A stretch of DNA of 21,641 nt, from positions 1 through 21,641 of IMG/VR virus record IMGVR_UViG_3300034272_001449, one strand, 5' to 3'. This document shows positions 2,162-21,641 of this stretch, piece by piece. Positions within the stretch are counted from its first letter, which is position 1; each line of letters opens with the position of its first letter. Source of the DNA: a virus. The notes under the pieces are model-generated. The model was not told the origin of the DNA. It did no database searches and saw only the letters and a program-made list of their open reading frames with translations. A program made the position numbers and the translations under genes.

Positions 2162-2910
2162 AATCATATATCATTACCATGCTGGGGCATGAACTGTCTG
2201 AACAACTATCAGCCCAGTGTAGAGAACAAGCAGCTAAAGTTGGAGTCAACGTAGAAATATTTCAAGCTATCTGGGGACGAGACTACCAACAACACTTGGC
2301 AAAACTCAACATCCGACTGGGCAAACAAAAACTCAGCAAAATGACCCTGGGGCATTATGGTAATTTTCTAAGTCATTTTTATCTATGGATGCAATGTGTT
2401 CAAGATCAAGTGCCGTATCTTGTGCTAGAACATGACGGATGGCTCATGCGACCAATTCCTCAAGATATTTTTTCACAGTTTGACGATGTATGCAAACTAG
2501 ATTGTTTTAGCCCGTGGATGAAACAAGATGGCGGCTATGATGTTGTGGTAGATCAGGATCAGACATCGCCTGTCACAGTCTACTCAATTCTAGATATTCC
2601 CAAAATAACTGGATACAGTGATCCGTTGAGATTTAAAAGCCGGGCCGGATGTTATAGTTCAGGAGTGTATGCTTACATCATCAAACCACAAGGTGCAAAA
2701 AAATTGATTGATTATATTAGAGAAAACGGATTCTTGGCCACCGACAATCAAGTCAACACCAATGTCATGGATGTCAAGGTATGCATACCATCAGTGGCCA
2801 GATTACATCCAGTTATGAAAAATAGTGAAATAATTGGGCAGATGTCGACTTCAAGACGCAGTCCAAATCCTCACACAGGAAAAGGTATGGAAAATGCAGA
2901 ACAAAAATAA
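2158..2910 (+). CDS. GT25-type (LPS biosynthesis) glycosyltransferase
   Basis: The 250-aa product starts MKSYIITMLGH, the usual N-terminal strand of family 25 glycosyltransferases. It continues with LGHYGNFLSHFYLWMQC (64-80) and PYLVLEHDGWL (86-96). The last corresponds to the family's LEDD metal/nucleotide element, here Glu91-His-Asp93. The later GCYSSGVYAYIIKPQGAKKLID matches the typical G-x-x-AY-hydrophobic-GA-KLL segment. GT25 enzymes add galactose or glucose to lipooligosaccharide. Length is normal for the family. The start lies in an ATGA overlap with the mini-ORF and lacks a clear ribosome-binding site. The 3' end overlaps the next gene by 17 nt. Donor and acceptor are not predictable. 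Confidence 0.8.
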   Translation: MKSYIITMLGHELSEQLSAQCREQAAKVGVNVEIFQAIWGRDYQQHLAKLNIRLGKQKLSKMTLGHYGNFLSHFYLWMQCVQDQVPYLVLEHDGWLMRPIPQDIFSQFDDVCKLDCFSPWMKQDGGYDVVVDQDQTSPVTVYSILDIPKITGYSDPLRFKSRAGCYSSGVYAYIIKPQGAKKLIDYIRENGFLATDNQVNTNVMDVKVCIPSVARLHPVMKNSEIIGQMSTSRRSPNPHTGKGMENAEQK

Positions 2911-3997
2911 ACACATCGCACTGACACAAAAATTCAGCACATGGGGAGACAAGTTGTTGCAACACACTGATGTGTTGTACAGTATCCAGCATGATAAAAA
3001 ATTCCGACCCATTACAATACAACTGTCGCCCTGTGAAGTTTGCAGCAGTGGTTGCCCATTTTGCAGTGTGGCCGACCGACCGCTGAAGTCGTATCTACCA
3101 TTTGAAAAAATCAAACAAGTGTTGCGTGATTTTCGAACTCTGGGCGCCAAGAGTGTGGAACTAACTGGTGGTGGCGAACCCTTGATCTATCGCGACAAGG
3201 ATACCCAGGACGACATCAACAGCATAGTTGAGTATGCACATGAACTGGGCTACGACATTGGCATCATAACCAACACGCTGAAACTGTCAAGAATCCGGCC
3301 AGAAAACTATCACAAGATCAGCTGGATCCGGGTAAGTCTGATCAAGTTGGACGAAGGATATGAGCCAGAAGATTTTGATTTCTGTGGCTTTCCTCTTGAG
3401 AAAATGGGACTGTCATACATTATCTACGAAGGTGACACTGGCACAGGCAACAGGCTGGGCAAACCCTATCGGCCCACCGACGTTGAAACAATACGACGCA
3501 TTGCTCGAGTGTTGGAACTGCATCCTGAACTGAAATTTGTCAGAATAGCAGGCAACTGTTTGATCAAAGGCAACAATGCACAAATTAGAACACAATTCAA
3601 ACAAGTGATTGATGAGATTGACACCCTAAACAAAATCTTTATCAAAGACATTGGAGAAGATGATTCCCCATTTGAGGATGGTTGCTATGTGGGCATGATA
3701 CGCCCATACGTGGCTCCTGATCCACACGGCAATGGCAAGTATCAAGTGTACATTTGTACCAGTCATGTGTTAAACAAACAAAACTATGACCTAGATTATT
3801 CACTGTGTGATGTGGACAATATTATTCCCACATGGCAACGACTCAGCGACAACTATGCGGCCAAAGGATATCCATACGAAGTAAAAAACAACTGTGGACA
3901 AGATTGGACCGAAAGTTGCAAATACTGCTACTATAAATTCAACAACAAAATTTTACACACTGTGGCACAAGAAATGCCGGATCGGAACTTTCCATGA
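2894..3997 (+). CDS. Radical SAM enzyme with Cys-rich C-terminus
   Basis: This is a 367-aa protein if started at ATG 2894, which has AAAGG 8 nt upstream. A longer frame from TTG 2834 lies deep inside GT25 and is less likely. The CxxxCxxC loop that binds the catalytic [4Fe-4S] cluster is C50-SSG-C54-PF-C57, with an extra C47 just before it. ELTGGGEPLIY (89-99) is the GGE motif that contacts SAM. The C-terminal part has further cysteines (YICTSH, NNCGQDW, SCKYCYYK) that could hold an auxiliary cluster in SPASM/twitch fashion. The reaction is unknown. It sits between GT25 and a methyltransferase, so modification of a sugar or a glycan-linked group is a reasonable inference, but peptide modification cannot be excluded. 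The stop overlaps the next ATG (ATGA). Confidence 0.8.
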   Translation: MQNKNKHIALTQKFSTWGDKLLQHTDVLYSIQHDKKFRPITIQLSPCEVCSSGCPFCSVADRPLKSYLPFEKIKQVLRDFRTLGAKSVELTGGGEPLIYRDKDTQDDINSIVEYAHELGYDIGIITNTLKLSRIRPENYHKISWIRVSLIKLDEGYEPEDFDFCGFPLEKMGLSYIIYEGDTGTGNRLGKPYRPTDVETIRRIARVLELHPELKFVRIAGNCLIKGNNAQIRTQFKQVIDEIDTLNKIFIKDIGEDDSPFEDGCYVGMIRPYVAPDPHGNGKYQVYICTSHVLNKQNYDLDYSLCDVDNIIPTWQRLSDNYAAKGYPYEVKNNCGQDWTESCKYCYYKFNNKILHTVAQEMPDRNFP

Positions 3998-4578
3998 CAC
4001 AAGTATTTGACGAACAGTACTATCGTTCCAACAACTATGTTGATTATTTCTCCAAACGTGAACGATACGTAAAGACCGCTGAAGAAATACAACAGGTGTT
4101 TCACAAATTCAGTCTCATCAACCAAGATTCAACCATACTAGATTATGGATGCAGTTTGGGTTTCTTGATCAAAGGATTTGAAAAAGCTGGATTCAAAAAC
4201 GTTTTTGGGTATGATATCTCCGACTGGGCTGTGGAGCAAGCAAGAAAAAATGATTGTAAAATACTGGAGCATGCTCGGGGCACATTCGACCTGGGCATAT
4301 TTTTAGACGTGCTAGAGCACATGACTGATCAACAAATTGCTGAATTATTTTCTCAACTCAAACTTGATAAAGTTTTGGTTAGAATACCATGTGCTGTTGC
4401 CAAACAGCCCAATGAGTTTTATCTAGAGGTATCTCGACGAGACTCTACACACATAAACTGCAAAACAGATCAACACTGGATAGAACTGTTCCGAGATCTA
4501 GGTTATCAAAATTGTTTGCGACTCAACATGTCAACCATATATGATTCACCTGGTTGCTTTTGTTGCTTGTTCATGTGA
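3994..4578 (+). CDS. Class I SAM-dependent methyltransferase
   Basis: The 194-aa product carries a Rossmann-type SAM-binding motif, ILDYGCSLGFLIKGFEKAGF (about residues 47-66). This is followed by the strand-2 element VFGYDISDWAVEQARK, whose Asp would bind the ribose. FDLGIFLDVLEHM is the usual motif II/post-II of small-molecule methyltransferases. It begins in an ATGA overlap with the radical SAM gene. It is the last gene of the plus-strand operon, and its stop (4576-4578) overlaps the stop of the convergent minus-strand gene. The substrate is unknown. Context suggests it acts on the same product as the FkbM enzyme and the radical SAM enzyme. Confidence 0.8.
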   Translation: MTQVFDEQYYRSNNYVDYFSKRERYVKTAEEIQQVFHKFSLINQDSTILDYGCSLGFLIKGFEKAGFKNVFGYDISDWAVEQARKNDCKILEHARGTFDLGIFLDVLEHMTDQQIAELFSQLKLDKVLVRIPCAVAKQPNEFYLEVSRRDSTHINCKTDQHWIELFRDLGYQNCLRLNMSTIYDSPGCFCCLFM

Positions 4579-5497
4579 GATAAGGCAAAAACTTTTGATA
4601 CACACGGCCTGCACGAGCATCTTCGTCACTCCAGTGTGCGGCTGCTAGATCATAAATCCACTGTTCTCTAGAGAATACATCTGGCGATTCAATCTTACTG
4701 ATATCCTGGTTGGCCACTGACCAGGCCACACAACTGGTGTCATCTGCAAACACAGGTATGCCTTCACACACCGCAGCCACACTGGCACTGCTGTTGAAAA
4801 ACACTGCTGCATGTGCTCCTTGTAGGTTGTCAATCAAACGACTTTGAGTAGGTTCAATTATAACTATGTTTTGTCTCTTGCTCATTTTGCGGGTGTATGC
4901 TGCAAAATCTGCCATGTTGTATTGGCCCGGGTGTGGGCGTACCCAAATTTGTCTACTGCTAACTGATCTAATCTGATGTATTTTGTCGTGCAACCAAGTC
5001 ATGGGATCCAGTGTTTTCATGGCAAATCCGCCGTCTCGTTGCATGCCGATCAAAATGTGTCCTGTACTGTTTGTCTTGGCAGGTTTTAAATCAACTCCCA
5101 GGGTGCGACTGATTTCCAGCCATTTGGTAGCATCACTGTTGCGATTGGCATATTCAGCACGATCATAAAAAGGTCCGCCAAGACTGTACCGCAAATAACT
5201 GCCTTGATTGTCAAGATACTTCCAGCATGACGCATCTATACACAGAGTATGAAATCCCAGCTTGCGTTGTTCAGGTATGATTTGTTTGCGCAGGGCAATA
5301 TTACGCCCACCTGTGTTGGTAGTGGCCCAACCTAGGATCACAGCCAGCCGACTGGGAGTATAACGATGTTCCCATTCCACTTGCACTGTGTGCCCTGCAG
5401 CTTGGACACCCTCAGCAAAACTTTCCAGGCATTGTATTTTCCTAGAATGTTTCTGCGGATTAGCAACACTGCTAATGTAAACCACTACATCAACCAC
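4571..5497 (-). CDS. GT-B / capsule-synthesis-like glycosyltransferase
   Basis: The 308-aa product is predicted from GTG 5497, which overlaps the stop of the upstream gene by 8 nt. An alternative GTG at 5485 has AGGGTGG before it. The open frame extends further upstream only by running antiparallel to protein sense in the neighbour, so the longer form is rejected. The N-terminus VVYISSVANP begins a Rossmann-like strand. IWVRPHPGQYN carries the His-Pro of capsule-synthesis and CDP-glycerol-transferase-type GT-B folds. AVFFNSSASVAAVCEGIPVF is the donor-site element, matching the proteins at 665-1468 and 5490-7139. It is thus a third paralogue, and the only one that keeps the RPHP motif. It is the last gene of the minus-strand run. 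Confidence 0.6.
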   Translation of the reverse strand: MVDVVVYISSVANPQKHSRKIQCLESFAEGVQAAGHTVQVEWEHRYTPSRLAVILGWATTNTGGRNIALRKQIIPEQRKLGFHTLCIDASCWKYLDNQGSYLRYSLGGPFYDRAEYANRNSDATKWLEISRTLGVDLKPAKTNSTGHILIGMQRDGGFAMKTLDPMTWLHDKIHQIRSVSSRQIWVRPHPGQYNMADFAAYTRKMSKRQNIVIIEPTQSRLIDNLQGAHAAVFFNSSASVAAVCEGIPVFADDTSCVAWSVANQDISKIESPDVFSREQWIYDLAAAHWSDEDARAGRVYQKFLPYLT

Positions 5498-7139
5498 CCT
5501 GCAAGATTCTCCATGCTGTGCCGTCGCGCATTTCTGCTTCGGTAAATTGGCAATAGGCCATATGTGCCGCCCAGGCTTCAACTTCATCCAAGGTAGGCAC
5601 ATGAGGCTTTTCAATGGCATCTAAACTCTGACTGCACAAGGCAGCAGCCGCATTAGGCCCAAGTGTGATAGCAGGTTTACCATTCAGCAAGGCTTCTCCA
5701 GCAGCAATACTTGAGAATGTGATCAAACAATGTATGTCTTGTTTGAGTGCATGTGCCATACTGTCGTCACTGGTTCTGGCAGTGCGACTGGGTTTGCGTC
5801 TAACCACCACTTCACGATCAGTATGAGCACCAATTTCTAACAGTACATTAGCAAGCCATTGCTCTAAATCAATGTCATAAAGATTCAACAGTTTTTGACT
5901 GGGTGGTGCCAACAATATCTTGCTGCCACGATAGAACTTGCATGGTTGAAAACCTGTGGCCGCTAGTCTATCTCTAGGACGATCAATTATGGGACCAAAG
6001 TTTTGCACATCATTCTTGGTCACTCTATGAAACGTTTTCTTTTTACCGTTGCCAAAATAGCCAGTGTCAATGTAATAAAAGTCACGCCCTGTGGCACGGC
6101 AAATATTCATTTCTTTGCGTTTGGTTATGCCACGCAACACCACCGGAGTCATTGACTGTTCACTTTTGCTCCAGTTGGTTATTCGGCCTCCGCAGCCCAT
6201 GGTAAAACTTTCTAGTACAGGATCAAACATTTTTCCCTTTTCTGCATATTTAAAATCGCCTGCATTTACATCTATAGCATGCACAGCATTGTTGTCTAAA
6301 AGTTGTATCTTGTTGGTCAGAGTCTCAAGATTCATGCCATAAAAATCGCCTGCAGGATCCACACGATATTTCAATACATCATAAAATATTTCATTGACTT
6401 CAGGTGCCGTAACATCCAACTCATGTGGCTGCGGGACCACAGTATGTGATTTTACTTTGACAGTTTGTTCGCAATGTGTGGTTCGCTGCTTTTCTTCATG
6501 CCATTCTGATGAAAAATGACCTTGCGTGGCAAACTCATGGAAACAAGGGGTACCCAGAGTATAGTGTACCAACTTGGCCTCAGGATTAGCATCATATTCA
6601 ACATCCAACCAGTTCCATTCTGGGGGCAGTTCGCCAATGCGATCATCATCTAGCCAGGTGAATCTATGCAGTTCTGCACCTGTTGATTGTTGCACAAACT
6701 CTGGAGTCAACTTGCGATTGGGAAAACTGTTGCAGTTCCACAAGATCACACTTGACCAGTTCTTGCGTGGATAATCTTCGTTCTTGCTGCCAAGATACTT
6801 TTCAGTCATGCGTGTTTTATAGTCGTGTTTGACAACCATGACGTCTTTGGCAAGATTTTGCAACTCCCACAGTTTTACAATGTCGTCACGCAAGATCATG
6901 TCGCCATCAATGAATATGGCCCAGCCAGTGTAATCCATCAAATGAGGCACAAGAAATCTTGAATAGATAAATTGATTGCTGCCGTCAGTGTGTGTTTCAT
7001 CGTAGTCTCGAAACAAGTTTAAGGCCACAGGAATTATAGCTACAGGCTGACTGGCATGTCTAATGATTGAGTTAACACACACATGGTATGCCACAGCCTC
7101 TCTAGGATCGTATCCTACAAACACAGGAATTGGCTTCAT
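5490..7139 (-). CDS. Two-domain glycosyltransferase: GT8-like GT-A plus GT-B-like domain
   Basis: This is a 549-aa fusion. Residues 1 to about 250 form a GT-A domain with the start PVFVGYDPREAVAYHVC, then SNQFIYSRFLVPHL and AIFIDGDMILRDD. The last holds the DGD metal-binding motif at 78-80, as in GT8-type enzymes and in GTs I recall from cyanophages. Residues from about 290 to the end match the stand-alone protein at 665-1468: VVLRGI, YIDTGYFGN, LYDIDLEQWLANV, LITFSSIAAGEALLNGKPAI and HMAYCQF. The ATG overlaps the upstream stop as ATGA (7136-7139). The protein may add two sugars in succession to one acceptor (inference). No membrane segment is seen. Confidence 0.8.
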   Translation of the reverse strand: MKPIPVFVGYDPREAVAYHVCVNSIIRHASQPVAIIPVALNLFRDYDETHTDGSNQFIYSRFLVPHLMDYTGWAIFIDGDMILRDDIVKLWELQNLAKDVMVVKHDYKTRMTEKYLGSKNEDYPRKNWSSVILWNCNSFPNRKLTPEFVQQSTGAELHRFTWLDDDRIGELPPEWNWLDVEYDANPEAKLVHYTLGTPCFHEFATQGHFSSEWHEEKQRTTHCEQTVKVKSHTVVPQPHELDVTAPEVNEIFYDVLKYRVDPAGDFYGMNLETLTNKIQLLDNNAVHAIDVNAGDFKYAEKGKMFDPVLESFTMGCGGRITNWSKSEQSMTPVVLRGITKRKEMNICRATGRDFYYIDTGYFGNGKKKTFHRVTKNDVQNFGPIIDRPRDRLAATGFQPCKFYRGSKILLAPPSQKLLNLYDIDLEQWLANVLLEIGAHTDREVVVRRKPSRTARTSDDSMAHALKQDIHCLITFSSIAAGEALLNGKPAITLGPNAAAALCSQSLDAIEKPHVPTLDEVEAWAAHMAYCQFTEAEMRDGTAWRILQGG

Positions 7140-7894
7140 TTCTTACGCTCAATATCTTCCTCAACACAGTTTTCACCGTATTGGATTTCAATCAACTTGA
7201 GTGGCGTGTCTGTTTCGTTGCACAACATGTGCCACTGGTTCTTTTTGATCCACACATAGTCATGCTGTTTGAAGTTGCCAACCAAGTCGTGATCAGTTCC
7301 TGCATCTAGTGTGTACACTGCGGCTTCGCCTTCGGCCACAAACCAAAACTCTGCACGTTGATCATGTCGTTGCATGCTCAAGCATGTTTTAGGCATCACA
7401 GTGAGTTCTTTGAGCTTGGTGTTGGCTCCTACTTCATGCAACACACGATAGTACCCCCAGGCACGATTAGTCTGGGGTGTTTTCCATTCAGTCAATATCC
7501 ATGAACTGGAATTTTTTTTGTCCTCTCCCCCTACACCAAATGCAAATTCAACGTCTGACATACGCATTTCGGGGATGTTGTCGGATGTTCTATCTCCGCC
7601 ATTGGCAAACACAAGGTCAGCGTCGGGATAATGCGCACGAACCTGCTCTATAAAATGACATGCAGAGCCGTCTGAATCATCAAAGGTATAAACTTCATCA
7701 ACCATGCTTAAATTGTTGATAATACACAGGCGTTCGTTCCAGGGCATAAATGCCCGACCTTTTTTGCGTTCTAACCATTCATCTGAATTGAGACCCACAA
7801 TTAATAGATCTCCGAGAGTGCGAGCAGATTTTAAATAAGCAATATGCCCAGAATGGATGGGGTCAAAACCTCCGGTTACAAGTACAATTTTCAT
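7136..7894 (-). CDS. Nucleotidyltransferase fused to mannose-6-phosphate isomerase-type cupin
   Basis: The 252-aa product has two domains. Residues 1 to about 135 are a cytidylyl/adenylyltransferase: VTGGFDPIHSGHIAYL holds the H14-S-G-H17 (HxGH) nucleotide-binding motif, and FANGGDRTSDNIPE plus GVGGEDKKNSSSWIL are typical of RfaE2/TagD-like family members. Residues from about 140 to the end are a cupin of the type II phosphomannose isomerase kind: WGYYRVLHEVG, then CLSMQRHDQRAEFWFVAEG, with likely metal ligands at H177, E182 and H222. Nucleotidyltransferases of this kind activate sugar- or polyol-phosphates. The fused cupin suggests isomerisation or binding of the same sugar phosphate. The gene feeds directly into the glycosyltransferase downstream through an ATGA overlap. 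Confidence 0.8.
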   Translation of the reverse strand: MKIVLVTGGFDPIHSGHIAYLKSARTLGDLLIVGLNSDEWLERKKGRAFMPWNERLCIINNLSMVDEVYTFDDSDGSACHFIEQVRAHYPDADLVFANGGDRTSDNIPEMRMSDVEFAFGVGGEDKKNSSSWILTEWKTPQTNRAWGYYRVLHEVGANTKLKELTVMPKTCLSMQRHDQRAEFWFVAEGEAAVYTLDAGTDHDLVGNFKQHDYVWIKKNQWHMLCNETDTPLKLIEIQYGENCVEEDIERKK

Positions 7895-11883: not shown

Positions 11884-12915
11884 TTATTTATGATCAAGTT
11901 GTTCTAAATTAATAATATCGTAGGGTCGTTGTTGTAACTGTTGTTGATTGTGTTCAAACACATCAATGTTGGCCATAAACAGATCATGCAAGGTATCTAT
12001 ATTGGATGTTAGTTTGGTCAAGCATTCAATGTACCTGGAAAATCTTGGCTCATTTTGCAACTCATCATTGTCTTTGTTTTGATCTTCGATATTGTCCCAA
12101 CTAAAGTCAATTCCTACTGGCAGACGCCAACCATTTTCGACCAAAGTACGATAATACTGCCTAGGACCAAAATTCAACACAAATCTACCTTGTATCAAAT
12201 GGTCATAAGTTTTTTCACAAAATATCACATTATTGCCTTTTATCATTGATTCTATCTGCGCTGATACATAGGTATCATCAAAAAATCTTCTTGCCGGCGG
12301 TGTGGCTGCTACACTTCGAATATGTGTTTCGCCAGTTTCACACGGCAACACTGTTTCATCAGAAAATCCACCGTGATGTCCTGGAATGTGATGTATTGAG
12401 TTGTATAGGTGTTGTTTAATGTGTTTATTATTTCTGCCATACAAAGAAAGCACTGCCAACGGTCGTCGATCTAGTAGCACGGGCCATTGATTGAAATTTT
12501 GTTGGCCAAGTTGCTTCCATCCTGGCTTTTTGTCGTGATAGGCTTGTTTGCATCGATTCCAATAAAAATCAAAATGTACAACATGGTCAAGATCAGGTAC
12601 AGATTTCTTGCGAAAGGTTAACAAACTAGTTGGTAATATCTTTTGAAAATATTTTATCATTTCGATACGTTGAGTTTCAAATATCGATTCATAATGAAAT
12701 ATATCATAAAAAACCAATTTTTGAATTGCGTGAGTTTTTATGTATTCTTCGAGTTTGCTTTTTGTGTACAAAGGCAGGCGAGTATCTGTCTTGACTTCAT
12801 ACATCCAAAAGTCCGCCCATAATTCACCGGATGATTGATCGTGCTCTATCGGTAACCATTGTGGAAAGGTAAAAATAGAAGCATCGCTGCCCGGCATCAA
12901 GGCTACCTTGCGCAT
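11884..12915 (-). CDS. Putative glycosyltransferase, GT10/exostosin-like C-terminal fold
   Basis: In the 343-aa product, the region FFDDTYVSAQIESM followed by IFCEKTYDHLIQGRFVLNFG (231-250) and LVENGWRLPVGIDFSWDNIED (258-278) follows the fucosyltransferase/exostosin pattern. In that pattern an EKT element is followed by a pocket-forming strand, then a Gly-Phe/Trp turn and an Asp-rich loop, then a long helix (RFSRYIECLTKL). This is the nucleotide-sugar half of a GT-B enzyme. The N-terminal half (VALMPGSDASIFTFPQWLP) could be the acceptor domain. No signal peptide or membrane segment is seen. The DNA is A+T rich compared with gp17 or gp32 (about 23% GC in a sampled line), consistent with an acquired gene. 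It is followed directly by the gp32 terminator/promoter. Confidence 0.5.
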   Translation of the reverse strand: MRKVALMPGSDASIFTFPQWLPIEHDQSSGELWADFWMYEVKTDTRLPLYTKSKLEEYIKTHAIQKLVFYDIFHYESIFETQRIEMIKYFQKILPTSLLTFRKKSVPDLDHVVHFDFYWNRCKQAYHDKKPGWKQLGQQNFNQWPVLLDRRPLAVLSLYGRNNKHIKQHLYNSIHHIPGHHGGFSDETVLPCETGETHIRSVAATPPARRFFDDTYVSAQIESMIKGNNVIFCEKTYDHLIQGRFVLNFGPRQYYRTLVENGWRLPVGIDFSWDNIEDQNKDNDELQNEPRFSRYIECLTKLTSNIDTLHDLFMANIDVFEHNQQQLQQRPYDIINLEQLDHK

Positions 12916-14896: not shown

Positions 14897-16486
14897 TTAG
14901 CGCAGCATTGATATGAACGGCATGGGCTCAATGACGTTATCGCCGTGATCTTTCATTTGTGTGTCTAATTCTGCGTGATAAGTCTGCAACATCATCAACA
15001 TGCGCACTATCAACAGAGAGCTCATTACCAAATCGTCGGTTTCTCCAGGTTTGGCAGCATAACTTCCGCCATTGGCCACAAAAGTTTTGAGTTCCGAAAT
15101 CAAGGGTCTGCTGTACAATCTCATGCGTCCAGATTCCACAAGAATTTTGAACTTGTTGCAAGCAGTGAGTTTGGCTTTGTTTGTGGTGTTGAATCCTTTG
15201 CGGAATCTACGCCCTGTGGTGCCTGTTACACTGTTGTCGCTGAGGAAATAGCCTTTAATGTTCTCTTCCCCGTATTCGTTTATTGAGATCAAGGCAGCTT
15301 CACCAATGGTGTTGTTTTCTACTGAATAGTAGATCTTTTTGTCATCTTTGGTGACGTCGTACAGTTCATTCACAATATCAGCCAACAGTTTGACCTGGGT
15401 AGGGATGTCTGTTTTGTTGTGGCGCCATTCTGCTACTTGCTCTGTGGTTTCTGCTTCAAACACCTGTATAGCAGCAGGATCTCCACCTGTACCCAGGCTG
15501 GGATCTAGTGCCACAATGTAGATTTTGTCTTTGACAGGTGTTTTATACCAACGCACCTGTCCTGTACGACGATTGGGTTCTACTCCTTCTAGGTCTAGCA
15601 GTCTAGTAGGAGCAATCAAGGTTTCATCATTGATAACGAATTCACATTCCATTTCTCGTCGGAATCGATCTTCGCCCAATTGTGCCAGTTGTTCTAGTCC
15701 CCACTTGGCATCTCTGTCAGGATGTTCACGCCAGTTGCTTCTAAATGCACGAAAGCCGTTGATACCTAGTTCTGTGGTGTTACCATGCTCGTCCATGGTC
15801 TTGTTAGCACCTTTCCACAGATAAGCAAACTGATCTTCGTCTGAGTTGGGTGTTGATGTGATAATGGCCTTACCACCTGTGGCCAACGTAGGGCTAATAG
15901 AAGTCCAAAACTCTCGAGCAATAGTGGGTCGCACAAATGCAAATTCGTCAGCGTACAGGAGTGAGATACTCATACCCCGTCCGGTTGTTTCTGTAGTGGT
16001 CTGGGCTACAATACGACTGCCGTTTTCAAATTCCAAGCTGTTTTTGTTGTAGCTGGTGGCACCTGCCCTAATATGGTTAGGGCACAATTCGTATGCGTAC
16101 CTAATACGTTGCATGATCTCTTGTGCGCCGGTGTATTTGTGTGCTGCCACAAGTATGGTCGAATCTGGCACAAACATAGCGTACCACAACAGATACCCAG
16201 CAGCCGAAGTTGATTTACCTGTTTGTCGAGGCATCAGACTGATACTGTATCTGTAGTTGTGATAGGTTTCAATCAGTCTGGTTTGATACTCAAATGGATG
16301 ATAAACCATCTTACCGCGTGTGGGATGCTGGATGTAGAAGAAATGATCTAAAAAGTATAGTGGTCCATTCACAGGATCCGCACAAGCAGCAAACTCTATC
16401 AGTTCATCTTCAGTGAATACTTCCTTACGGTGCGGTGCTTTGACCAACACCGTTTCTAGATTTTTATTTGGCGGTGGCGAAATCAT
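14897..16486 (-). CDS. gp17: Terminase large subunit (gp17-like)
   Basis: The 529-aa product is the DNA-packaging motor ATPase-nuclease. Walker A is SLMPRQTGKSTSAAGY (85-92 core), Walker B is LLYADEFAFV (D180, E181), and the coupling motif is IITSTPNSDEDQ (208-219). The C-terminal RNase H-like nuclease acidic residues are D328 (IVALDPSLGTGGDPA), E390 (YYSVENNTIGEA) and D484/D485 (GETDDLVMSS), aligning with the T4 gp17 nuclease triad. T4 gp17 is 610 aa, so this is somewhat shorter but complete in motifs. The start ATG 16486 overlaps the end of the SGNH hydrolase by 23 nt. No small terminase (gp16) is seen next to it. It acts at the prohead portal to package and cut concatemeric DNA. Confidence 0.95.
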   Translation of the reverse strand: MISPPPNKNLETVLVKAPHRKEVFTEDELIEFAACADPVNGPLYFLDHFFYIQHPTRGKMVYHPFEYQTRLIETYHNYRYSISLMPRQTGKSTSAAGYLLWYAMFVPDSTILVAAHKYTGAQEIMQRIRYAYELCPNHIRAGATSYNKNSLEFENGSRIVAQTTTETTGRGMSISLLYADEFAFVRPTIAREFWTSISPTLATGGKAIITSTPNSDEDQFAYLWKGANKTMDEHGNTTELGINGFRAFRSNWREHPDRDAKWGLEQLAQLGEDRFRREMECEFVINDETLIAPTRLLDLEGVEPNRRTGQVRWYKTPVKDKIYIVALDPSLGTGGDPAAIQVFEAETTEQVAEWRHNKTDIPTQVKLLADIVNELYDVTKDDKKIYYSVENNTIGEAALISINEYGEENIKGYFLSDNSVTGTTGRRFRKGFNTTNKAKLTACNKFKILVESGRMRLYSRPLISELKTFVANGGSYAAKPGETDDLVMSSLLIVRMLMMLQTYHAELDTQMKDHGDNVIEPMPFISMLR

Positions 16487-17219
16487 TTATGATTCTTTCT
16501 GCAAATGTTCTGTGTCCTTCAGGACCGGCATGCATGCGGTCTCTAGCATACCCTACTTCTTCGCGGCTTTTGGCAAACCAATCATGTGCATTGTATGTCA
16601 AACAACGTATGCCCAATCTAGCACACAATCCTTCTACTGCCAATCGATTCCGTGCGTTATTTAAGTCCGCATTGCGATCATTCAAAAACCAAGTTTTTAT
16701 AAATCCGTCTTGATCGGCTCCGCTAATTTCGCTAGCAGGCAAATAAGTGTCGTGATTGTGGTTGTCTTTTTCTGATATCAAATCAAATCTGTGCTTGGGC
16801 GGTGCTGCCATTACCACCAGTTTTGGGCGTAGTATTGGTAACCAGTGATTGGCCAGCATAAAACAAGTGTCTGCGCTGGTGCCGCCCCAGGCCAGATTGT
16901 AATTTTTCAAACCCAAGGCCTGTGCGACCAAATAACTCCATGTGGCCTCTTCTGGCAGTCCAATACCAATGGTATAACTACACCCCAATGAAACTACACT
17001 GGCCGCTTGCGGATCAAATTCTTCTGATCTAAATCCCTCACTGTTTATACGATATGTTATAGCATTGGGCTCAAGCCAACCTTGGCTGCGAAAATATTCA
17101 CGGTATTCTTCAACCTGCACTAGTCGTTGAAAACTTTCTTCTGTGTCAGTTGGTAACCATTTTGATATCTCCCCAGCTGATTTTGTACCAAAATGCCATA
17201 GAGTCTTATTTTTTTTCAT
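16464..17219 (-). CDS. SGNH/GDSL-type hydrolase
   Basis: The 251-aa product has Block I, VVSLGCSYTIGIG (75-87), with the nucleophile Ser81 preceded by GC. Block II is LAWGGTSADTCF with Gly113. The Block V-like RDRMHAGPEGHRTFAERI contains Asp227-x-x-His230, the catalytic pair. Block III (normally GxND) is replaced by MAAPPKHRFD, so oxyanion support may differ. The early YRINSEGFRSEEF is typical of this hydrolase group. SGNH enzymes hydrolyse esters, often removing acetyl or acyl groups from sugars. The start is ATG 17219 with AAGGA 6-7 nt upstream, overlapping the radical SAM stop by 14 nt. It has no signal peptide, so it acts in the cytoplasm or is virion-packaged. It is the last gene of the cassette. 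Confidence 0.8.
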   Translation of the reverse strand: MKKNKTLWHFGTKSAGEISKWLPTDTEESFQRLVQVEEYREYFRSQGWLEPNAITYRINSEGFRSEEFDPQAASVVSLGCSYTIGIGLPEEATWSYLVAQALGLKNYNLAWGGTSADTCFMLANHWLPILRPKLVVMAAPPKHRFDLISEKDNHNHDTYLPASEISGADQDGFIKTWFLNDRNADLNNARNRLAVEGLCARLGIRCLTYNAHDWFAKSREEVGYARDRMHAGPEGHRTFAERIINDFATAK

Positions 17220-18354
17220 TGTAGTCCTTGACTAGGTCGGGCCACAGGTCCGCAAACTTTGTGGTTTTCTTCAGTGTTGTTTCAATGTAGTTGTGCCATT
17301 GTGTCATATTTGGCGGTTGACGATTATTTTTTAAATAACTGTTATCAATCAAAGTCATTCGATAACTTTCCAAGACATTGGTACTAAAACGTGGTTGAGT
17401 TTGGTACTTGGCAACCACGCGATCAATTTCTGCTATGGCCAGTTGTCGTAAATTGACAGTCTGCCGTCTGATATCTAATTCTTCTGGATGGTTTAACTCA
17501 CACCAGAAAATATCCAACTGTTGTTCAGCACAAAAGTCATAATATGTCATCAAGTCCATGGCGCAGTAGATTGAGTACGCTGGATGTGCTGCCACTGTTT
17601 GTTTATGACTTTTCATGACCTGTATGTTGTCAACAAACTGTGCCCAGGAGGCACCGTGCCGCACGTATTCAAATTTGTCCCTATCAGCATTGTCAAAACT
17701 GATCATCCATTGCACCATGGGCCAGGTGCGTAGTCGTTGATAGATTGCATTGCGTTCAAGGTCCACACTGAGATTGGTTGTGATCATAACACTGACTTTG
17801 CTGGGATCAAGATAGTCTAAAAACTGCTCTAGTCCCTTTTGTAGCAAGGGTTCGCCGCCGCCCAAGCTGAGTCCTTGTATGTTGTGCCCTTGTGTGCGAG
17901 CCAGTTCTATCAGGTCTGCGTGTTCGTTTTTGACATGATTGATAGGAATCTTTTTTATGCTTTGCCAGGCTGTGCTGGTTTCAGGATTGCAATACACACA
18001 GGCAAGATTGCACAAGTTGCTCCAATTGACCACAAGGTGTTCTAGTTTAAAAAAATTAATGTCTGCATCAATTGCGGCTATGGTTTCTGCACTAGCCTTG
18101 CGCACAGTTCTGCCGCTGACTCCTGTGGTCTCTTCCAGTCGTTTGCACCATGCGCATTCCGGTGCCCATTCGCCACGAGCCATGGATTGTCTCATATCAG
18201 TTAGTAACGGACCTGCTATAACTTCTTGTATGGTGTTTACTTTGACATCACCCATTTCTTCAACGCAATGAAAGCACGGACTGACCTTTCCTGTTTGGTC
18301 AATGTTGAGGCTGGTCCAAGGTGCTGGACAGAATGTGGGACTTTGTGAAATCAT
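17206..18354 (-). CDS. Radical SAM enzyme with N-terminal twitch/SPASM-type cluster (second of pair)
   Basis: This is a 382-aa protein from ATG 18354, which overlaps the oxygenase stop as ATGA; an in-frame ATG at 18369 would add five residues. The N-terminal Cys-rich part is FCPAPWTSLNIDQTG (C9), PCFHC (C27, C30) and ECAWC (C67, C70), likely an auxiliary cluster. The catalytic CxxxCxxC is C115-NLA-C119-VY-C122 (NLCNLACVYCNPE), and the SAM-contacting GGGEP is at 165-169. Landmarks shared with the protein at 18917-20059 include MISFDNADRDKFEYVRHG versus MSFDNIDQRFEYVRHG, and the IKKIP/IKNIP element. The substrate is unknown. Placing the auxiliary cysteines before, not after, the radical SAM barrel is characteristic of this phage-associated type. 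Confidence 0.85.
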   Translation of the reverse strand: MISQSPTFCPAPWTSLNIDQTGKVSPCFHCVEEMGDVKVNTIQEVIAGPLLTDMRQSMARGEWAPECAWCKRLEETTGVSGRTVRKASAETIAAIDADINFFKLEHLVVNWSNLCNLACVYCNPETSTAWQSIKKIPINHVKNEHADLIELARTQGHNIQGLSLGGGEPLLQKGLEQFLDYLDPSKVSVMITTNLSVDLERNAIYQRLRTWPMVQWMISFDNADRDKFEYVRHGASWAQFVDNIQVMKSHKQTVAAHPAYSIYCAMDLMTYYDFCAEQQLDIFWCELNHPEELDIRRQTVNLRQLAIAEIDRVVAKYQTQPRFSTNVLESYRMTLIDNSYLKNNRQPPNMTQWHNYIETTLKKTTKFADLWPDLVKDYNEKK

Positions 18355-18926
18355 TGCGGTGTTATCCATGTATAGCTGGTGAGTCTAAATGAGTTTGCAG
18401 GCACTGGTCTAAGCATTCCGTGCCACTGCAATTTTCGAAAACCTTGTGAATTTGCTTGATTAATCATGATATATCCTGAATTAGATTGCATGAGGAATTG
18501 GTATCTTAATGTGTTTGAATTTTTATAGGTGTAGAATGCTGTGCCTAAGTCTGATTGACTGCCAATCCAAAACAACTGCATGGCGCCTGGCATTTCCCCG
18601 TCTGTGTGTATTTTACATGTAAATCCTGGTTCGTCGACCCACCAAGCAGTGCCTGGGTAAGCGGTTGTGCTCATGTAATTGTGTATTTTAATGTTTAATT
18701 TTTCTTCAATAGTTGGCCAGGCTTGTTGACAACAGTGATTCCATTGATCAATCCAAGGTATTGATTCATCATTTATTTGCCTACGCTTTAAAAAATCATG
18801 TCCTTGTCGGTGTGCATAAGGCAATGCCATCCAAGGTGTATTAAAAATTTGATCGACTAAATTTGCAGGCGCAATATCTTTGACCTGAAACAAATTGTTG
18901 TCGTCATCAATTGCAGTTATTTGCAT
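18351..18926 (-). CDS. 2OG-Fe(II) oxygenase-like protein
   Basis: The 191-aa product is predicted from ATG 18926 (MQITAIDDDNNLFQV), which overlaps the upstream radical SAM stop. The facial triad of 2-oxoglutarate/Fe(II) dioxygenases is visible as H107-T-D109 (TCKIHTDGEMPGAMQLFW) and H169 (KLQWHGM), with R181 (NSFRLTSYTWI) placed to bind 2-oxoglutarate. The double-stranded beta-helix pattern (alternating strands GTAFYTYK, YQFLMQSNSGYIMIN) fits. Such enzymes hydroxylate or desaturate small molecules, sugars or proteins. The DNA is A+T rich (about 30% GC in a sampled line), whereas the following radical SAM gene reaches about 50%. It is coupled on both sides to radical SAM genes and probably acts on their product (inference). 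Confidence 0.7.
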   Translation of the reverse strand: MQITAIDDDNNLFQVKDIAPANLVDQIFNTPWMALPYAHRQGHDFLKRRQINDESIPWIDQWNHCCQQAWPTIEEKLNIKIHNYMSTTAYPGTAWWVDEPGFTCKIHTDGEMPGAMQLFWIGSQSDLGTAFYTYKNSNTLRYQFLMQSNSGYIMINQANSQGFRKLQWHGMLRPVPANSFRLTSYTWITPQ

Positions 18927-20059
18927 AAGGACACCAGCTCTGGCCATAGTTGTTTGAACTGTCCTGCCGAATCAGGATGATACTGTGTTTCGTTAACATG
19001 TATATGTTGTTTGAACTGCTGAGTTATGTTGCGTTGTTCTTTGGTTACCGCGCGATAGTTGCTCAATGCCTGATCAAAGAACTGCTGTTCAGCAGGTGTG
19101 GCAATACCTAATGCATAAAAACGTTCAATCTCCTCTGCTGCTAATTTGGCCACGGCAGGACCATGCAAAAAAGGATCCAGGTATTCAGGTTGAAACAAAT
19201 TTTGCCACAACACTGTGGCACCTGCTGACTCAACAAACTGCCTAAACTCGCACAATCTTGTGGCATTGTAAATGTTGTACACTGCATGCACACCACCCCA
19301 CTGCCCTTGTGATTTCATTAATGCTTGTATGGTCTTTAAGTTTTCTTGCAACACAGGCCACGAACCACCATGTCTCACATATTCAAAACGTTGATCTATG
19401 TTGTCAAAACTCATGCTCCAACCCACTTGTTTACGTTGTGCCAACTTGCGGAATATCCGGTTAGTTTGCAAGTCAACGTTCAAATTTGTGATTAGCGTGA
19501 CAATAGCAGACTCTGGTATCACGTCCAACAGTCGATCATTTTCTGGCAGCAGCAACGGTTCACCACCCACTAAAGCTACTTCGTGTATGTGCTTGTGGTG
19601 TTGTTCAATGAAATCACATACCTGTTCATAGTAAGGTCTTGCACCTGATTTGAATGGAATGTTTTTGATTCCTGCCCACTTTGAACTACATGCTTCGCCA
19701 CAGTAGTTGCAACTCAAGTTACAAGTGGTATTCCAACGCACATCAACTATCACAGGGTAGTGATATTGATTGCCAGCAGTGCTGTAATCAAAGTTGGGAT
19801 TTACATTGTTGTGCCAGGCACGTTCTGAATCAGCACCAAAACGTTCTGCCCGCACACAGTTGGAGCAGTACTCATGTGCTTGTCCTTGTGCCAAACTTGT
19901 GCGTATCTCTGACATTAAATTTGAATTAAGCACTTGTTCTATTGACTGTGAATTGAGGTTGCCCAGCATGTTGGGGTTGCCAGCACAGCAGGTTTTAACA
20001 TCGCCACGGGGATTGATGTGTAGTCCGCGCCAGGGGGCTGCACAGTAGAAATTGCTCAT
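18917..20059 (-). CDS. Radical SAM enzyme with N-terminal twitch/SPASM-type cluster (first of pair)
   Basis: The 380-aa product has an N-terminal auxiliary cysteine set: C6 in NFYCAAPWRGLHINPRGD, C24-C25, and C65/C68 in EYCSNC. The catalytic CxxxCxxC is C113-NLS-C117-NY-C120 (NTTCNLSCNYCGEAC), and VALVGGEPLLL (161-171) supplies the GGE motif. The remainder aligns by eye with the paralogue at 17206-18354. Enzymes of this type use a 5'-deoxyadenosyl radical; the second cluster is often used to bind or oxidise peptide or sugar substrates. The ATG 20059 lies 18 nt after the thermonuclease stop, in a gap containing CCGTATTTACGG. It is the first gene of the four-gene cassette. Confidence 0.85.
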   Translation of the reverse strand: MSNFYCAAPWRGLHINPRGDVKTCCAGNPNMLGNLNSQSIEQVLNSNLMSEIRTSLAQGQAHEYCSNCVRAERFGADSERAWHNNVNPNFDYSTAGNQYHYPVIVDVRWNTTCNLSCNYCGEACSSKWAGIKNIPFKSGARPYYEQVCDFIEQHHKHIHEVALVGGEPLLLPENDRLLDVIPESAIVTLITNLNVDLQTNRIFRKLAQRKQVGWSMSFDNIDQRFEYVRHGGSWPVLQENLKTIQALMKSQGQWGGVHAVYNIYNATRLCEFRQFVESAGATVLWQNLFQPEYLDPFLHGPAVAKLAAEEIERFYALGIATPAEQQFFDQALSNYRAVTKEQRNITQQFKQHIHVNETQYHPDSAGQFKQLWPELVSLCK

Positions 20060-20077: not shown

Positions 20078-20518
20078 TTATTGACACCAAGACGTTTTGG
20101 CTTCGCCGTAGTATTCTCTGGCATGGCCATTGGCAATGAGTCCTTGTCTAATGCTCTGTCCGTTTACCAAGATGTCTCCCAATATACGACCACCAAACTT
20201 ATCCCATCCATAAATAACAACCTGGTGCTTGTTTGAGGATTGTAGGGCTTGAGTTGTAAATTTACTCGCCAATTGCGCTCGCTGGTCTTCTTGTGTACAT
20301 TGAGCTCTGTGTCCTTTTTCTGGCGTGTCAACTCCGTAGATTCTAACAGCCAGTTCTGGTTTGAGTGGTGCTGGTAGAAATGGAGCGGCGATCACAATAG
20401 TGTCGCCATCACTCACTCTAATAATCTGTGCATCATAAGTTGCAGAGTTCTTGGGCATCTTGCCCTGAGCCATGACCAGTGCGGGCATGATCAGTAATAA
20501 TAGTAATAGTTGTTTCAT
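20078..20518 (-). CDS. Secreted thermonuclease (SNase-like)
   Basis: The 146-aa product is a staphylococcal-nuclease-fold enzyme. VSDGDTIVI (36-43) holds the calcium-binding aspartate, RIYGVDTPEKG (59-69) holds the equivalents of SNase Arg35, Asp40 and Glu43, and YGWDKFGGRILGDI (103-116) holds the Arg87 equivalent (R111). IRQGLIANGHAREYYG is the usual C-terminal end. Residues 1-17 (MKQLLLLLLIMPALVMA) form a clear signal peptide with cleavage likely after Ala17, so the enzyme should be exported to the periplasm or outside. The start is ATG 20518; the open frame's 13-residue upstream extension would hide the signal peptide. It lies 5 nt after the virion protein gene. Possible roles are degrading extracellular or incoming competitor DNA (inference). 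Confidence 0.9.
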   Translation of the reverse strand: MKQLLLLLLIMPALVMAQGKMPKNSATYDAQIIRVSDGDTIVIAAPFLPAPLKPELAVRIYGVDTPEKGHRAQCTQEDQRAQLASKFTTQALQSSNKHQVVIYGWDKFGGRILGDILVNGQSIRQGLIANGHAREYYGEAKTSWCQ

Positions 20519-20523
20519 AGTTT

Positions 20524-21641
20524 TTAGTTTGTGAGTTCTTCCCAGCCCAGTTTCCAAAGCAGGTCAGCGTTGGCACTGGTGTAGGCCACTGCCAGAGTCA
20601 AGGTGCTGGGTGTTCCGGCTGCTGTTCTCCACAGTTGCAGACGACGTTTGATATCTTCGCTGATCTCCACTTCGTCTCGACTGCTGGACAGGCCCGCATA
20701 GACCACAGTACCGTCAGTGATCACATTGCTGTGTATGGCAGTTTGAACAACTGATCCAGCCACATTGCTGAAACTGGTAGTGAAGGTGGCATTTTCAATC
20801 AGTTGGAACTGGCCGTATCTCACATCCAGTGACAATATATCCAGTTGAGCTGGTACAACCACTGCATCAGGATAGGCCGGATTCAGTCGGATACTGCACA
20901 AGGCTGTGACAGTGTTGGCCGAACTTATTCGGGTTGGAGTTGTATTGTTGGACACATACGCAATCTTAGTGGCAGGATTATAGCCACCTTCCGATATTAC
21001 TGTGGAGCAAATCTGTTTCATGGTGCTCACACCTGAGGTAGCACCGGTGTTGGTTATTTCGTAGCGAGGGTTCAGGGTGGCAGTGGTCATGTACACTGTG
21101 GTGTTGCCCGGCTGGTTGGCATGTTGGAATGTGTGGCACACAATGAATTCACCGTTTATGACAAATCCGGTGCGTACATTGCCCACGCCCAGCCACTCAA
21201 CATCACACCAAAAAATTTGTGTGAGAGTAGGGTCTAGTACCGTGCCCGACAATAAAGTGTTGCCGTTCCACGAGGCCTGTGGGATTCTTTCTTCAACCAC
21301 GCTGCCTGTGGTGCTACTACGAATCACAAGATTCAGAGTGGTGCCCACTGCTTCAAAATATATGCCATTGTCTACTGTGAAGTAGCCCACACGCTGTGTA
21401 AGATTTGCCTTGAGTGTGGCCATGGCAAACGTGTTCATGATCAGCAGGCTTTTGCCGGGTTGATAAGCCTGCACGGTTTTGCTTTGTCTTGTCACACTGC
21501 TTCCACTGGCAGCTGATACATTTAGATTGAATGAACTTTCATTGGCCACATACACCACATTGCCGCCTGTGGCTGTGATGTTTGAAAACTGATCACCGTC
21601 TATGTAGCGATTTTGGCTGTCAAAAAGGGTAAAGGGATTGC
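20524..21641 (-). CDS. Phage virion structural protein, beta-rich, 5' end outside window
   Basis: The frame is open to the right edge (first full codon at 21639), so the GTG at 21558 is not the real start. About 371 residues are visible. Sequence such as FDSQNRYIDGDQFSNITATG, NESSFNLNVS, SVTRQSKTVQAYQPGKSLL, NLTQRVGYFTVDNGIYFEA and TLNLVIRSSTTGSVVEERI matches the style of a large fibre- or capsid-decoration-type structural protein I recall from marine T4-like phages. It is rich in Thr, Val, Asn and Gly, with short beta-strands and almost no charge clusters. The C-terminus RRLQLWRTAAGTPSTLTLAV and KLGWEEL is typical of the same proteins. The exact location in the virion cannot be told from sequence. 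Confidence 0.75.
   Translation of the reverse strand, partial: NPFTLFDSQNRYIDGDQFSNITATGGNVVYVANESSFNLNVSAASGSSVTRQSKTVQAYQPGKSLLIMNTFAMATLKANLTQRVGYFTVDNGIYFEAVGTTLNLVIRSSTTGSVVEERIPQASWNGNTLLSGTVLDPTLTQIFWCDVEWLGVGNVRTGFVINGEFIVCHTFQHANQPGNTTVYMTTATLNPRYEITNTGATSGVSTMKQICSTVISEGGYNPATKIAYVSNNTTPTRISSANTVTALCSIRLNPAYPDAVVVPAQLDILSLDVRYGQFQLIENATFTTSFSNVAGSVVQTAIHSNVITDGTVVYAGLSSSRDEVEISEDIKRRLQLWRTAAGTPSTLTLAVAYTSANADLLWKLGWEELTN

Follow-up and report, generated by a model that had tools for sequence, protein, structure and literature searches.

Predicted radical SAM enzymes and their partners form a modular gene island upstream of the terminase gene in uncultured jumbo myophages

Gene content of the island

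The DNA that we analysed (hereafter referred to as the window) is a 21.6-kb virus record of the IMG/VR database (IMGVR_UViG_3300034272_001449; 21,641 nucleotides, nt), in which four enzyme genes lie between a nuclease gene and the gene of the large terminase subunit, terL. In reading order on the minus strand, these genes encode a radical S-adenosylmethionine (SAM) enzyme, rSAM2 (18917-20059); an Fe(II)/2-oxoglutarate (2OG) oxygenase (18351-18947, or from an alternative start at 18926); a second radical SAM enzyme, rSAM1 (17206-18369, or from an alternative start at 18354); and an SGNH-fold hydrolase- or acyltransferase-like protein (16464-17219). The fixed upstream border of this run, referred to as the island, is a thermonuclease-like gene, SNase (20078-20557, likely starting at the ATG near 20518), the product of which has a signal peptide and matches PF00565 (E 4.9e-9) and the endonuclease family phrog_452. 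It is itself preceded by a virion structural protein gene of the late region (20524-21558; phrog_1645, E 2.5e-83). The fixed downstream border is terL (14897-16486; PF03237, E 9.5e-15), the product of which is of the T4-like jumbo phage type and shares 50% identity with the TerL protein of the Pseudomonas jumbo phage PA5oct. The four genes are all found where a preliminary description, made from the sequence of the window, had placed them.

When the first ATGs are used, the rSAM2/2OG, 2OG/rSAM1 and rSAM1/SGNH overlaps are 31, 19 and 14 nt long, respectively. The shorter values first reported (10, 4 and 14 nt) are obtained if the 2OG and rSAM1 genes start at their internal ATGs (18926 and 18354); of the candidate 2OG starts, the 5'-most ATG is conserved, yet it overlaps rSAM2 codons. 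The terL gene, starting at 16486, overlaps the SGNH gene by 23 nt. Since the stop of SNase and the start of rSAM2 are only 18 nt apart, and the genes overlap from there through to terL, the run has no free space.

The two radical SAM enzymes

Both rSAM2 (205.5 bits) and rSAM1 (202 bits) score above the curated cut-off (170 bits) of the NCBIfam family NF033640 (N_Twi_rSAM) and cover positions 1-395 of its 398-position profile. They match this family of twitch radical SAM proteins at full length, yet stand in a clade of their own among its paralogues, as sister clades to one another (tree support 0.94). The CxxxCxxC motif and the N-terminal twitch cysteines are invariant in 42 aligned homologues. 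They correspond in rSAM2 to C113/C117/C120 (radical SAM motif) and C6/C24/C65/C68 (auxiliary cysteines, spaced C-x17-C-x40-C-x2-C), and in rSAM1 to C120/C124/C127 and C14/C32/C72/C75 (C-x17-C-x39-C-x2-C). From these data, which agree with the two paralogous enzymes with N-terminal auxiliary cysteines first noticed, rSAM1 and rSAM2 are predicted N-terminal-twitch radical SAM enzymes, with a predicted auxiliary [4Fe-4S] cluster and a predicted SAM cleavage activity.

The N-terminal cysteines of both proteins align, in spacing and motifs, with the twitch (auxiliary-cluster) domain of BtrN, the 2-deoxy-scyllo-inosamine dehydrogenase, a twitch-bearing radical SAM enzyme acting on a sugar alcohol. 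However, this match is local (E 3e-6), and the twitch domain is C-terminal in BtrN whereas it is N-terminal in rSAM1 and rSAM2. We know of no NF033640 member with a characterised reaction.

The 2OG oxygenase and the SGNH protein

The 2OG protein matched no Pfam, NCBIfam or PHROGs family at E < 0.01, prolyl hydroxylase (P4H), Tet_JBP and similar families included. Nevertheless, the H114-x-D116...H176 triad pointed out in the preliminary description is invariant in 35 homologues, as is the distal R188, and the AlphaFold2 model (predicted local distance difference test score, pLDDT, 91.8) displays a double-stranded beta-helix with a prolyl-hydroxylase-like fold. The best PDB matches of this model are PasI (Z 15.4), OGFOD1 (Z 15.1), PolD (Z 14.6) and a bacterial P4H (Z 13.7). 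In view of the iron triad, the distal arginine and the modelled fold, the gene encodes a predicted member of the Fe(II)/2OG oxygenase superfamily.

The SGNH protein carries an N-terminal extension of about 70 residues. Its Ser81, Gly113, Asp227 and His230 (blocks I, II and V), which include the serine and the Asp-x-x-His pair first spotted, are invariant in 48 sequences, 16 of which match PF13472. Concerning block III, there is no GxND motif past the expected strand; Arg144 is invariant there, and N183 is invariant further on. The AlphaFold2 model (pLDDT 92.2) confirmed an SGNH fold, similar to that of SGNH esterases, with CgnD (Z 13.8), TesA (Z 12.2) and several carbohydrate esterases (Z about 10) among the PDB matches. 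Neither the 2OG nor the SGNH model points, by its structure matches, to one class of substrate, and fold likeness alone says nothing on function.

A modular island in one clade of phages

Scanning IMG/VR with each island protein yielded many syntenic loci. So that loci were not picked by the presence of the enzyme genes, we anchored a sample on terL, retaining 49 loci whose sequence reaches 3 kb or more upstream of it. This sample comprises relatives with a TerL at least 74% identical to that of the window, and it therefore describes one clade. The rSAM2 gene occurs at the same place in 39 of these 49 viral loci; in five of the ten others the site is empty, SNase being followed directly by terL at a distance of 53-290 nt. 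Among 56 distinct rSAM2 loci, the interval between rSAM2 and terL contains no other gene in 21 cases, the full set in 15, the 2OG gene in seven, the SGNH gene in five, the 2OG and SGNH genes in four, and the rSAM1 and SGNH genes in four. The idea of a fixed four-gene cassette had thus to be given up. The order rSAM2-2OG-rSAM1-SGNH-terL never varies, and rSAM1 is always accompanied by the SGNH gene (18/18; Fisher p 1.2e-7, a value that ignores the kinship among loci).

The median ratios of nonsynonymous to synonymous substitution rates (dN/dS) are 0.056 for rSAM2, 0.077 for rSAM1, 0.094 for SGNH and 0.149 for 2OG. The identities of the four genes to those of the window vary independently within one relative (rSAM2, 2OG, rSAM1 and SGNH: 92, 51, 80 and 84% in locus L003; 88, 68, 66 and 46% in locus L005), and the island is therefore a mosaic. 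The conserved synteny in dozens of contigs, together with the low dN/dS values, places the run beyond chance. Homologues that rarely occur together, or insertions scattered in a single genome, would have told against the preliminary description; what we found instead is a conserved order, the dependence of rSAM1 on SGNH and a widespread synteny. Collectively, these results make the four-gene run the fullest version of a modular island, probably a tailoring one, that has rSAM2 as its constant core and belongs to a clade of uncultured aquatic jumbo myophages. Among 50,697 records of cultured phages, neither the 2OG nor the SGNH protein has a relative, and the island is absent from them; the sole relatives of the rSAMs are proteins of the Vibrio phages K566 and K567, which are just 20% identical.

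In two loci (L047:2069-2182 and L151:7813-7902), a short stretch of rSAM1 (about 30-38 codons, at 63-64% identity) persists between the 2OG and SGNH genes, which looks like the trace of an rSAM1 deletion.

Fusion proteins and other genes in the same slot

Three kinds of single open reading frame (ORF) fusions were observed: rSAM2-2OG (564 amino acids, aa; identical in L067 and L069, contigs of two datasets), rSAM2-SGNH (618 aa; L168) and EK-SGNH (631 aa; L132), EK designating the protein family with an invariant E...EK...G motif that is presented below. In addition, a 602-aa phage protein of the BFVD database named Radical_SAM (A0A6J5LTW5) also matches the SGNH model. The existence of these fusions indicates that the parts belong to one process. 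Together with the fixed gene order and the rSAM1-SGNH dependence, they support the proposal, already made in the preliminary description, that the enzymes act jointly in a multistep modification.

In other loci, different genes occupy the slot. EK-family proteins take the place of rSAM1 (L150, L132), beside SGNH, or precede rSAM2 (L086, L178). In the near-complete relative G001, the slot harbours an EK protein, a second GDS-motif protein and an NAD-dependent sugar-nucleotide epimerase (PF01370, E 3.7e-41), while L191 has a gene for an FkbM-like methyltransferase, the match of which is weak (E 0.0018, below the Pfam cut-off).

The EK family, which has no match in Pfam or PHROGs, is represented in the window by a minus-strand gene (11884-12915), the product of which is possibly GT10-like, and in related loci by about 66 ORFs, with 6-15 copies per genome. 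The 403-aa gene at the rSAM1 position of L150 belongs to this family and does not encode a radical SAM protein.

The radical SAM family beyond the island

When contigs were scanned with the rSAM profile, the hits were for the most part distant radical SAM proteins, and family searches of genomes were used instead. Six relatives (G001-G006; 317-364 kb) each encode 9-16 NF033640 proteins above the cut-off, partly in tandem arrays (for example, G002:C1:139414-150868). The region G001:C1:309000-334000 contains five radical SAM genes along with AMP-binding, carbamoyltransferase, GDSL and TctC-type genes, thereby looking like a biosynthetic gene cluster carried by a phage. In G001, the EK, SGNH and 2OG genes tend to be close to rSAM genes (8/22, p < 1e-4, its own terL island being counted). 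The rSAM genes of the Vibrio phage K566 form an alternating series with GT8 genes.

In bacteria, the N_Twi_rSAM family is rare, occurring in three of 493 genomes, namely two of 299 in the phylum of a Methylobacter metagenome-assembled genome (MAG) and one of 194 in the phylum of a cyanobacterial MAG. The bacterial locus L347 possesses four tandem rSAM copies beside genes for an ABC-2 permease, RmlD, RmlC and a WbsX glycosyltransferase, and one of these copies is, within an O-polysaccharide export locus, part of an 836-aa protein (L347:8579-11089) composed of ABC_tran, Wzt_C, SPASM and Radical_SAM domains. This Wzt fusion ties phage-type rSAM genes to polysaccharide biology. Of the other bacterial loci, L349 has one rSAM gene close to a GT2 gene, L350 has two copies that flank an ABC-2 type exporter pair, and L348 encodes an rSAM fused to sulfotransferase and aminotransferase domains.

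Possible substrates of the island enzymes

The preliminary description left the choice between a peptide, a sugar and a nucleotide as the substrate. Because the genes that replace or extend the island and the bacterial homologues are of the glycan type, and no precursor peptide was found, we favour, by a narrow majority of our confidence, a sugar or glycan as the joint substrate. Apart from the epimerase and FkbM-like genes that relatives have in the slot, the window itself encodes GT2-, GT8-, GT25- and FkbM-type proteins, at about 9-20 kb from the island, and a cytidylyltransferase-cupin fusion. The alternation of rSAM and GT8 genes in K566, the alignment of the twitch cysteines with those of BtrN and the carbohydrate esterases among the matches of the SGNH model point the same way. 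We think it slightly better than even that the island serves the multistep tailoring of sugars or glycans of the host surface or the virion, for which we infer the following order of reactions and benefit. First, rSAM2, as the committed enzyme, would cleave SAM reductively to generate a 5'-deoxyadenosyl radical, which would take a hydrogen atom from a sugar carbon, the sugar being either nucleotide-linked or part of a glycan. As in BtrN, the twitch cluster would accept an electron or position the substrate, and the reaction could amount to an oxidation, an epimerisation or a deoxygenation. Second, the 2OG oxygenase would hydroxylate or further oxidise the rSAM2 product. Third, rSAM1 would introduce a second radical change, coupled with the action of the SGNH protein, which would remove an ester (acyl) group from the same residue or transfer one to it. 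The product, most likely incorporated into a host-surface or virion glycan, may allow an escape from superinfecting phages or from host defences. More tentatively, and with somewhat less than even confidence, we propose that rSAM2 makes an unusual sugar displayed on the host surface or virion, that the optional 2OG, rSAM1 and SGNH genes diversify it between phages, and that these enzymes are part of a set of 9-16 radical enzymes per genome. We know of no phage glycan shown to require radical SAM chemistry.

Several observations weigh against a sugar or glycan. The proximity of EK, SGNH and 2OG genes to rSAM genes is not significant in G002 (2/9, p 0.25). The assignment of EK proteins as glycosyltransferases similar to GT10 fucosyltransferases, based on the motif, was not retained, the PDB match to a fucosyltransferase being insignificant (E 0.26). 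Other observations would agree with the main rival explanation, in which the substrate is a virion protein: rSAM2 and rSAM1 would alter its side chains or backbone by radical chemistry (epimerisation, cross-links), the 2OG oxygenase would hydroxylate proline, lysine or asparagine residues, and the SGNH protein would trim or add acyl groups. The fold neighbours of the 2OG model include the protein prolyl hydroxylases OGFOD1 and P4H, and the rSAM profile matches include the peptide enzymes YydG (an epimerase), SuiB and anSME. Moreover, rSAM2 is very strongly conserved, and the island has a late location among head and packaging genes, with a virion structural gene on one side and terL on the other; both points would fit a conserved virion protein substrate. 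Yet the genes replacing or extending the island are of the sugar type and not of the protein type, the bacterial homologues are placed in polysaccharide loci, and each genome has many rSAM paralogues. On balance, we regard the modification of a virion protein as rather unlikely.

Less probable still is the production of a free small molecule, or of a modified nucleoside or sugar, comparable to the octosyl-acid nucleoside pathways. In polyoxin biosynthesis, the radical SAM enzyme PolH has been proposed to be followed by the putative 2OG enzymes PolD/PolK acting on a sugar nucleoside (PMC5365060), a succession of radical SAM and 2OG enzymes that the island would share. Furthermore, PasI is the best match of the 2OG model, PolD comes close to it in score, and another rSAM cluster, in a near-complete relative, lies with AMP-binding and carbamoyltransferase genes. 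However, the likeness of the 2OG protein is one of fold only (8-11% identity, within 1 Z unit of OGFOD1), and rSAM1 and rSAM2 are N_Twi_rSAM proteins. We view the octosyl-acid pathway as a chemical precedent only.

We see little chance that the island matures a small ribosomal peptide (a toxin, a signal or a virion peptide) in the manner of the ribosomally synthesised and post-translationally modified peptides (RiPPs). The maturases of RiPPs are commonly radical SAM/SPASM-type and 2OG enzymes, and the top PDB match of the SGNH model, CgnD, comes from crocagin biosynthesis. Against such a pathway, the narrow spacing upstream of rSAM2 and the overlaps downstream leave no room for an adjacent precursor, and the conserved short ORF that the preliminary description had suggested looking for was not found in the longer gaps of island loci, adjacent positions having been searched. 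The PqqD-type domain (PF05402) was also absent from eight relatives, while the control genomes were positive; this weighs little alone, as PqqD is one type of leader-binding domain among several.

Finally, a hypermodification of phage DNA, in which radical SAM and further enzymes would build on a hydroxylated base, is very improbable: although some phage DNA-modification pathways contain 2OG oxygenases and radical SAM enzymes, the 2OG gene of the island has no Pfam match, Tet_JBP (PF12851) turned up in none of the eight relatives (in a search without positive control), relatives with an empty site exist, and the island content is too variable for a genome-wide base chemistry.

Relation to known phage systems

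Radical SAM cassettes associated with glycosyltransferases have already been reported in phages; what is new here is the site, the core-plus-optional make-up and the fusions. In pelagimyophages, radical SAM cassettes are gained or lost in a glycosyltransferase-rich host-recognition cluster, and the authors inferred that the glycosyltransferases modify the O-chain (PMC7029224). By description, these cassettes resemble the island in that radical SAM genes are inserted or lost in environmental T4-like phages. However, they reside in the tail-fibre host-recognition cluster, whereas the island of the jumbo phages is always inserted between SNase and terL and combines a conserved core rSAM with defined 2OG, rSAM and SGNH partners. 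The T4-like marine virus TARA_ERS488813_N000010 (183 kb) has 12 radical SAM genes, which were interpreted in terms of Fe-S metabolism; it is similar to the clade of the island in its many radical SAM genes per virus, but an operon with 2OG and SGNH genes is not described there (PMC5332604). Our search of open-licence papers for radical SAM enzymes with SGNH proteins, O-antigen or virion glycans in phages returned nothing relevant. For the recurring puzzle of the many radical SAM genes of environmental T4-like viruses, the island offers a defined set of enzymes, natural fusions included, and work on it would show whether phages alter glycans by oxygen-sensitive radical chemistry.

Other genes of the window

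Between GT25 and methyltransferase genes, the plus strand encodes a third radical SAM protein (2834-3997), which is of another type and has no N_Twi match. Two minus-strand ORFs in different frames (4571-5620 and 5490-7139), which overlap by about 130 nt, adjoin the cytidylyltransferase-cupin fusion gene (7136-7894).

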